DNA of 64,000 bases from the NCBI RefSeq assembly GCF_002197665.1, contig NZ_NBBJ01000001.1:186001-250000 (forward strand), written 5' to 3'. The notes under the pieces are model-generated. The model was not told the origin of the DNA. It was given only the letters and a program-made list of their open reading frames with translations, and did not search any database. Shown here piece by piece: positions 60,542-61,730 of the stretch (its first letter is position 1; every line of letters starts with the position of its first letter). Source of the stretch: Sphingomonas mucosissima. Its GTDB lineage: Bacteria > Pseudomonadota > Alphaproteobacteria > Sphingomonadales > Sphingomonadaceae. Made by a program: the position numbers and the translations under genes.

Positions 60542-60859
60542 TCAGGCGCACTCTACCGTAAGCGCCTCGATCCGCGCCTGGCAGTGTCCGTCGCCGGGAA
60601 CCTGCTGCGCGACCTTGAGATCGGCGAGCAATTCCCCCGGCAGGGGCACGTCAAGGCTGCTGATCGCTGCCAGCCAGGCGCTCGCAGCCGCGCCGCCCGG
60701 AGACGCCGTGATCGTCATGGCATGGCGATGGCCGCTGAAGGTCGCGCTGTGCCACGGCGTTGACTGGTGCTGTTCCAAGGCAATCTCCAAGCCCAGGTGC
60801 GCCGCCGATCGGCTAAGGGCGCGGCCCAGCAGGACCGCGGCGTCCGGCCCGCGCATCAT
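60542..60859 (-). CDS. Small protein of unknown function in the SOS-box module
   Basis: 105 aa from ATG 60859 (overlapping the preceding stop as ATGATG; 60856 is the alternative). Sequence features are ALSRSAAHLGLEIALEQHQ, WHSATFSGHRHAM and a C-terminal GDGHCQARIEALTVECA with two cysteines. No membrane segment. I do not recognise the family. Translationally coupled to the 57-residue DNA-binding-like gene and so presumably controlled by the LexA box at 61051. Confidence 0.55.
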   Translation of the reverse strand: MMRGPDAAVLLGRALSRSAAHLGLEIALEQHQSTPWHSATFSGHRHAMTITASPGGAAASAWLAAISSLDVPLPGELLADLKVAQQVPGDGHCQARIEALTVECA

Positions 60860-61029
60860 TCGCCATCCTGAAGAATAGCATCCACCCGCGCGCAAATGCG
60901 GGGCCCCGGTGTCCGTCCTCCGCGCAGGTCATGCACCAAGCGTGGGTCGTTCACAGCCTGGCGGCCGAAGGTGGAGGGCGAAATGCCGGTACGGCGAAGG
61001 TAGCGGTCGATCCTGATCAGCAGCGACAT
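60856..61029 (-). CDS. Small helix-turn-helix-like protein
   Basis: 57 aa from ATG 61029, preceded by GGGAG. RIDRYLRRTGISPSTFGRQA then VNDPRLVHDLRGGRTPGPRI has the helix pattern of a Cro/XRE-like domain without the long turn, a pattern that recurs in short alphaproteobacterial proteins. It begins 21 bases downstream of a perfect LexA-type box and faces an S24 regulator gene. Likely DNA-binding, not proven. Confidence 0.6.
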   Translation of the reverse strand: MSLLIRIDRYLRRTGISPSTFGRQAVNDPRLVHDLRGGRTPGPRICARVDAILQDGE

Positions 61030-61050
61030 GGCAAACTCCCGAGTCACGTT

Positions 61051-61065
61051 GTTCGCTGTTTGTTC
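61051..61065. promoter_or_regulatory. LexA (SOS) box between divergent genes
   Basis: GTTC-GCTGTTT-GTTC, a perfect match to the alphaproteobacterial LexA direct repeat GTTC-N7-GTTC. It ends 21 bases before the ATG of the 57-residue gene (minus strand), where a promoter would be, and is about 50 bases before the start of the S24 regulator gene. Confidence 0.75.
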
Positions 61066-61081
61066 TCGCACCTTTTCCAAC

Positions 61082-61109
61082 TTGTCTAGGAAAAATCCTA
61101 GGCTATAGT
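61082..61109 (+). promoter_or_regulatory. Promoter and operator of the S24 regulator gene
   Basis: TTGTCT (61082-61087), 16 bp and TATAGT (61104-61109) make a promoter. A palindrome CTAGGA-AAAA-TCCTAG (61086-61101) sits across its spacer. The TATAGT is 6 bases before the ATG at 61116, so the transcript should begin at or next to the start codon (leaderless). The palindrome is a natural site for autorepression. Confidence 0.6.
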
Positions 61110-61115
61110 CGCGCG

Positions 61116-61730
61116 ATGGCGGAAACGGTTGGCGAGACGCTGGAGCGATTGGCGGCGGCGCAGGGCGTCAGCCTATCCGAGCTGTCACGCGTGATCGGCC
61201 GCAATCTGGCGTATCTTCAGCAATTCGTGCGCCGCGGCACGCCGCGCCGCCTGGCGGAACGCGATCGTCAGGTGCTCGCGCGCTTTCTCGGCGTGGATGA
61301 GGAGATGCTCGGCGGGGAGCCGCGCGATGCGACCATTGCCGTGCCCTATCTGTCAGTGGCGGCCTCGGCCGGGCGCGGCGCGACGGTGGGCGAGGAGCGT
61401 GCCATTCGGCAGGAGGAGTTTGCCGCGCGGATGCTGCGCGACTGCGGCGTATCGCCGGCGCACGCTTCGGTGATCGATGTGGCGGGCGATTCGATGCAGC
61501 CGACCATCCTTGCAGGGGACCGGCTGCTGGTGGATCGCGCGGATACCCGGCTGGCGAGTACCGGGATCTTCGTGGTTCGCCGCGCGGACGAACTTCTGGT
61601 CAAGCGGATCAGGCGGGAGGGCACGGCGCTGCTGTTGGTCAGCGACAATGCCGATTATGCTCCGATCCGTTGCACCGCCGGGGAAGCTGCAGTGATCGGG
61701 CGCGTCAAGCTGCTGCTGCGGCAGCCCTGA
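61116..61730 (+). CDS. S24-family LexA/CI-like transcription regulator
   Basis: 204 aa from ATG 61116. N-terminal XRE helix-turn-helix (about 7-60, LSELSRVIGRNLAYLQQFVRRG) and C-terminal S24 peptidase domain. The dyad is present: Ser126 in VAGDSMQPT and Lys163 in LLVKRI. An Ala85-Gly86 pair in VAASAGRGA is a possible self-cleavage site, as in LexA and phage CI. A RecA-triggered cleavage would link it to DNA damage, supported by the LexA-type box in front. Real cleavage is untested; many S24 regulators do not cleave. Confidence 0.82.
   Translation: MAETVGETLERLAAAQGVSLSELSRVIGRNLAYLQQFVRRGTPRRLAERDRQVLARFLGVDEEMLGGEPRDATIAVPYLSVAASAGRGATVGEERAIRQEEFAARMLRDCGVSPAHASVIDVAGDSMQPTILAGDRLLVDRADTRLASTGIFVVRRADELLVKRIRREGTALLLVSDNADYAPIRCTAGEAAVIGRVKLLLRQP

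Follow-up and report, generated by a model that had tools for sequence, protein, structure and literature searches.

What is a phage-type repressor gene doing on the chromosome of Sphingomonas mucosissima, back to back with two small genes, and does DNA damage turn the locus on? The locus lies within a 64-kb stretch of the genome (the window), and a preliminary description, made from the sequence, read it as a two-step damage switch in which relief of LexA repression turns on the two small genes and a self-cleaving S24-domain repressor controls itself. We found no published description of this locus in the open-access literature searched. All the features named in the preliminary description were found in the sequence and its ORFs, at the following positions:

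60542-60859, minus strand: gene for a 105-aa protein, an ORF read from the sequence; product probably related, distantly, to the PF11367 tail completion / tail terminator family
60856-61029, minus strand: gene for a 57-aa Cro-like helix-turn-helix (HTH) protein, an ORF read from the sequence
61051-61065, plus strand: LexA-type box GTTC-N7-GTTC, GTTCGCTGTTTGTTC, before the small operon
61082-61109, plus strand: putative S24 promoter TTGTCT-16-TATAGT, predicted from the sequence
61086-61101, no strand assigned: palindrome CTAGGAAAAATCCTAG, putative operator CTAGGA-N4-TCCTAG, between the S24 -35 and -10
61116-61730, plus strand: gene for a CI-like S24 repressor of 204 aa with Ser126/Lys163 and Ala85-Gly86

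The locus resembles a phage immunity region set among chromosomal genes

The 57-aa and 105-aa genes both read leftward and overlap by 4 nt, the S24 gene reads rightward, and both the box and the palindrome lie between them. As had been described, the GTTC-N7-GTTC box is perfect and is placed to control the small pair, and the palindrome is a separate, operator-like element inside the S24 promoter. All three genes are under purifying selection (dN/dS 0.15-0.53 against three relatives), with 0.16-0.20 for the 57-aa gene and 0.42-0.53 for the 105-aa gene, the fastest evolving of the three.

The cI/cro immunity regions of temperate phages likewise have a repressor with HTH and S24 domains, a divergent protein of Cro fold and a shared operator region. 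In contrast to these, the window locus is chromosomally fixed, carries one recognised operator plus a LexA-type box, and has a single downstream gene and no lytic programme. It does not lie within a phage or prophage; its neighbours are chromosomal, tamA adjoining it in 17/30 genus loci despite short flanks. Hence, it is not a phage immunity region proper, although it probably works like one and descends from one. Our main reading, to which we assign a probability of roughly two in three (0.68), is that the locus is a chromosomally fixed switch of cI/cro type and temperate-phage descent, under the control of LexA and the S24 protein. The placement of the box, the cleavage residues and the promoter palindrome bear out part of the damage switch first suggested, which we recast as a probable phage-type decision switch.

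The S24 repressor retains its cleavage residues and faces a conserved putative operator

The S24 protein matches PF00717 (E 7e-20), combines an HTH with an S24 domain as CI-like repressors do, and belongs with the phage repressor families phrog_4 and phrog_6201, which match 8/8 of the members scanned (set A1, window protein included). It is not a LexA, scoring 30.4 bits against the TIGR00498 cut-off of 110.95; the LexA of the same genome passes this model with 175.6 bits. The residues of a self-cleaving S24 protein are all present: the Ser126/Lys163 dyad and the Ala-Gly pair of the preliminary description, which is Ala85-Gly86. The dyad is kept in 75/78 S24 relatives and dyad plus Ala-Gly in 72/78 (30/30 within the genus), counted with L137 and L139 left out. 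A match of S24 in 61/61 relatives was set aside, since LexA proteins, through their own S24 domain, add to that figure. Among class-level proteins with the same HTH (six stretches), both dyad residues are altered in L352 and several proteins have other C-terminal parts. On plasmid pC33 of S. changnyeongensis, an S24 relative of 39 per cent identity lies beside genes for a WYL-domain protein and a RecB-like nuclease.

In the putative S24 promoter, TTGTCT (61082-61087) overlaps the palindrome by two bases and TATAGT lies at 61104-61109, so placed that the S24 transcript would perhaps start at or near the ATG and may be leaderless. TTGTCT is retained in most genus loci, and the operator and promoter elements are conserved across the genus loci. 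At up to three mismatches the palindrome is the sole site in the genome (0.10 expected in the window); a genome-wide count of sites with two mismatches gave six, against 13 for a control pattern, and no second site with 0 or 1 mismatch was found in the genome. Hence, the operator is without support from a regulon.

The 57-aa protein is predicted to be Cro-like and has phage relatives

Direct family searches with the 57-aa protein gave nothing usable. Its predicted model (pLDDT 91.6) retrieved the 434 repressor, SinR, C proteins, P22 c2 and 434 Cro as the top Foldseek rows, with E-values all above 0.2 for this very short protein; the model, with these weak E-values, points to a Cro/C1-type HTH fold.

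Synechococcus phage MinM1 encodes a 74-aa relative (L239, 2483-2707; tblastn E 3e-4) in an ORF that is unannotated in its record; the ORF diverges from an S24 gene, and GGGA-type palindromes lie between the two. We found 16 viral loci with a relative of the 57-aa protein. The divergent S24/small pair is seen in three (L259-L261); each has about three look-alike operators by eye, and in none do the 260 bp upstream of the small gene contain GTTC-N7-GTTC. In most of the others the S24 side is cut off or unrecognised. In class-level bacterial loci outside the family the small gene lies beside S24 in 6/26, and some of these six sit, by eye, among phage-like or conjugation-like genes. At order level a recognisable small HTH gene lies beside S24 in only 1/20 loci (L122).

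In three of the 16 viral loci (L250 from G348, L252 and L257; IMG/VR contigs), a prophage end is fused to the first ~5-8 codons of a copy of the small gene. In G348 the prophage ends are Mu-like: they read TG...CA and come with a 5-bp repeat. The S24 gene of the trio lies at the opposite end of this contig. Judging by these junctions, insertion seems to have occurred repeatedly at the start of the small gene.

The LexA-type box is conserved within the genus

GTTC-N7-GTTC is the LexA motif published for Alphaproteobacteria (PMC3323433). Chance alone would give 1.45 copies in the window, which has one; the whole genome has 109, compared with 63 copies of a reversed control pattern. A single box is therefore uninformative by itself; it gains significance from its conservation across same-genus loci. 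The exact box is present in 27/30 S24 loci and 29/30 small-gene loci of the genus and, with both sets combined, in 33/36 same-genus genomes that have the locus, our own included. The three genomes that lack it (G002, G004 and G023) form a single clade and have GATC at the first repeat; L060 is an S24 locus truly without the exact box. Control spacings N5, N6, N8 and N9 gave 0, 2, 0 and 0 of 30 genus loci. A pattern search found box and operator together in 28/30 small-gene loci, where the start of the box precedes the operator by 31-36 bp.

The same box stands 30-49 bp upstream of lexA in 20/20 readable lexA genes of the genus (21 regions were fetched, one of which, L154, has no readable start). 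The locus thus has a conserved GTTC-N7-GTTC in its promoter region, as members of an SOS regulon do. SOS genes have been reported from Sphingopyxis granuli, and the text searched for that report mentions neither S24 nor phage (PMC6472365).

A 37th same-genus genome, G030, has no S24 or small gene at such a locus. It lacks the trio and carries a 105-aa homologue in a prophage, adjoining a Mu Gam-like gene (L248).

Across the family, the box is placed much like the outer operator of boxless loci

The S24 gene is present in 143/159 Sphingomonadaceae genomes drawn, representing 90/96 genera (E <= 1e-40). We examined 70 family loci, comprising the 30 best-scoring ones and 40 chosen by hand among the matches listed, one per genome, so the shares that follow hold for this sample. 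The small gene is present in 68/70 and the 105-aa gene in 61/70. The possibility raised in the preliminary description that the gene order might be peculiar to this strain thus falls, since the order is conserved far more widely. Sphingomonas dokdonensis DSM 21029 (L233), for one, also has the trio.

We found the box in 19/68 loci of the sample and 17/56 genera, our own included. In the same 68 intergenic stretches the opposite strand gave 4, the reversed pattern 0 and shuffles 0.17, and the spacings N5, N6, N8 and N9 gave 1, 2, 0 and 0. With S24-type operators called at <=2 mismatches, the 49 boxless loci have at least two operators in 24, one in 16 and none in 9; in comparison, the 19 boxed loci have one operator in 11, at least two operator-like sites in 6 and none in 2. 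With no more than one operator recognised in 25/49 boxless loci, operator and box do not trade places one for one throughout the sample.

Operators in boxless loci are mostly spaced 39, 20 or 19 bp apart, and a distance of 31-39 bp separates the start of the box from the operator in 40/46 boxed loci (family and genus pooled). Hence, the box sits about where the outer operator lies elsewhere, and we infer that it replaced that operator. On a tree of 74 S24 proteins (L137-L141 and L307 left out), the state of the box needs at least 6 changes, of which well-supported branches force at least 3. The LexA-type box, present in 17 of the 56 sampled genera, does not belong to the original set of parts.

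The 105-aa protein is probably a distant tail-terminator relative

The 105-aa product was at first unrecognised, and this stands for direct comparison: the window protein has no family match in the libraries searched and does not reach the PF11367 gathering score, which 3/17 members of its relative set (A2) pass. Through its homologues it acquires a relation. A homologue lies near the same S24 gene in 10/20 order-level loci, and three that were scanned match PF11367 (E 4.5e-25, 3.8e-18 and 6.5e-9). In profile comparisons, the genus proteins match the order-level ones with probability 98 and the order-level ones match the tail terminators of gene transfer agents (GTAs) with 99.5; direct comparison of genus proteins and GTA tail terminators gives only 67.

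The predicted model (pLDDT 94.9) matches a GTA virion chain, a monocin cap and a phage neck protein with Z 9.4-9.7. The pilus protein PilO ranks above these (Z 10.2) and collagenase domains come close below, so the fold by itself does not settle the family. The profile similarity of the relatives and the matching predicted fold together make a fair case for a distant relationship between the 105-aa protein and phage and GTA tail terminators (PF11367). In contrast to PF11367 proteins, it is shorter, has no direct match and lies outside a tail gene cluster. In four prophage or viral loci its relatives likewise lie outside the tail module: adjoining a Mu Gam-like gene (L248 and L266), before HNH and terminase genes (L267), or after a methyltransferase-like gene (L268). 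A RecT-like reading of another L268 gene was not confirmed by Pfam.

The genome of the window has a GTA-type cluster at a contig end (G000:C4:1-9000), with terminase, portal, protease, PF11367, tail tube and GTA-gp10-like genes. We rejected the 105-aa protein as this genome's own GTA tail terminator, since the cluster has its own PF11367 gene and the two proteins do not align. In a quick tree, the S24-linked proteins are likewise apart from the GTA ones.

Other cargo lies near the same kind of putative switch

The small gene is present without a 105-aa gene within the stretch examined in 7/70 loci, and six of these seven have the box. At L355 (genome G425, another genus), the S24/small/box cassette stands directly before a same-strand run of DpdF (E 5e-245), DpdG (9e-9) and DpdH (8e-179), so that this Dpd defence system is possibly under SOS control. 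Other neighbours are a cytosine methyltransferase and a NERD-type gene (L354), TraH and TraG genes (L356, and by eye similarly L358), a D12 methyltransferase (L357) and a VanY-type peptidase gene (L359). These few cases suggest that S24, small gene and box form a portable control cassette.

A wider proposal builds on this, and we hold it to be doubtful. A phage-derived S24/Cro-like cassette would circulate among phages, conjugative elements, defence islands and Sphingomonadaceae chromosomes; host LexA would repeatedly and independently have taken the place at the outer operator, making any cargo downstream of the Cro-like gene an SOS output. The Sphingomonas cargo would then be a single stripped-down tail-terminator homologue; produced in the SOS response, it would cap or poison tails, either those of prophages induced at the same time or those of the resident GTA.

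A model for the switch and its alternatives

In the reading we prefer, a fixed switch of cI/cro type, the CI-like S24 protein would limit itself by binding the palindrome that lies in its promoter between -35 and -10, and it would probably also shut the divergent small operon. LexA on the GTTC-N7-GTTC box would be a second lock on that operon, and the 57-aa protein would be the Cro-like partner of S24. Upon DNA damage, RecA filaments would cause LexA to be cleaved and, very likely, S24 to cleave itself. With the small operon on, the Cro-like protein would occupy the S24 operator and keep the repressor off, and the 105-aa protein would be made. Binding by LexA and S24, cleavage and Cro antagonism are what we infer; as to the 105-aa protein, our guess is that its target is a phage or GTA particle, or else the switch.

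The nearest known arrangements of LexA with a phage repressor are the LexA-controlled antirepressors, Tum of 186, AntC of N15 and GfoA/GftA of the Gifsy phages, where a LexA box likewise brings a small gene of phage type, next to a repressor that is also of phage type, under SOS control (PMC3121763). By their example, the 105-aa protein could itself be the trigger, an antirepressor under LexA that binds S24 as Tum, AntC and GftA do in phages, and its relatives in prophages do lie near early-type genes such as the Mu Gam-like one. We think this rather unlikely. In contrast to these antirepressor modules, the box here precedes a Cro-like gene, and S24 still has the residues for its own cleavage; with these residues retained in so many relatives, S24 would need no antirepressor. 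The box also occurs in the six loci without a 105-aa gene, and the protein is related to tail terminators, not to known antirepressors.

The nearest alphaproteobacterial relative in layout that we met is RogA of Caulobacter crescentus (CCNA_00080), compared by its published description: it too is an HTH and S24 repressor with an inverted-repeat site (PMC9632790; see also PMC11150451, PMC13236601 and PMC10688885). If S24 were a repressor of this type, its real task would be to silence a gene transfer agent, and the genome has both a GTA-type cluster and, next to S24, a gene for a tail-terminator relative. However, RogA is reported to have no catalytic residues, to recognise GGAA-N4-TTCC and to target gafYZ (PMC9632790), unlike the window S24 protein, whose dyad is kept nearly throughout its relatives. 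An operator at the GTA cluster was rejected as well, as the genome contains no further copy of the palindrome at 0 or 1 mismatch, and no link to RogA was made among the six class-level stretches with the same HTH. A GTA silencer is thus improbable.

We consider it more improbable still that the small HTH protein or S24, and not LexA, is what binds the GTTC-N7-GTTC box. The box does lie in the control region that both sides share, close to the position of S24-type operators in other genera, but it is the same box that precedes every readable lexA gene. Furthermore, the invariant positions in the recognition-helix stretch of the small protein are the same in 40 boxed and 47 boxless sequences (variable positions differ in frequency), so the box is unlikely to be the small protein's own site.

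We find it very hard to credit that an old prophage left the locus behind as an idle remnant: all its parts have phage relatives and the 105-aa protein is short and the fastest evolving, but dN/dS stays at 0.15-0.53, S24 persists in 143 of 159 family genomes, and the operator and promoter elements are conserved.

In a fixed cI/cro-type switch of this kind, a phage decision switch seems to have been turned into a near-universal chromosomal regulator of a bacterial family. Since the SOS box is present in some genera and absent in others, the regulatory rewiring can be traced across relatives, and a 105-aa protein that the libraries used do not recognise gains a family relation. At a fixed site of the Sphingomonas chromosome, DNA damage would be expected to activate a Cro-like gene together with one for a small tail-protein relative, and the loci with other cargo suggest that the same kind of cassette may put defence (Dpd) and conjugation genes under DNA-damage control.
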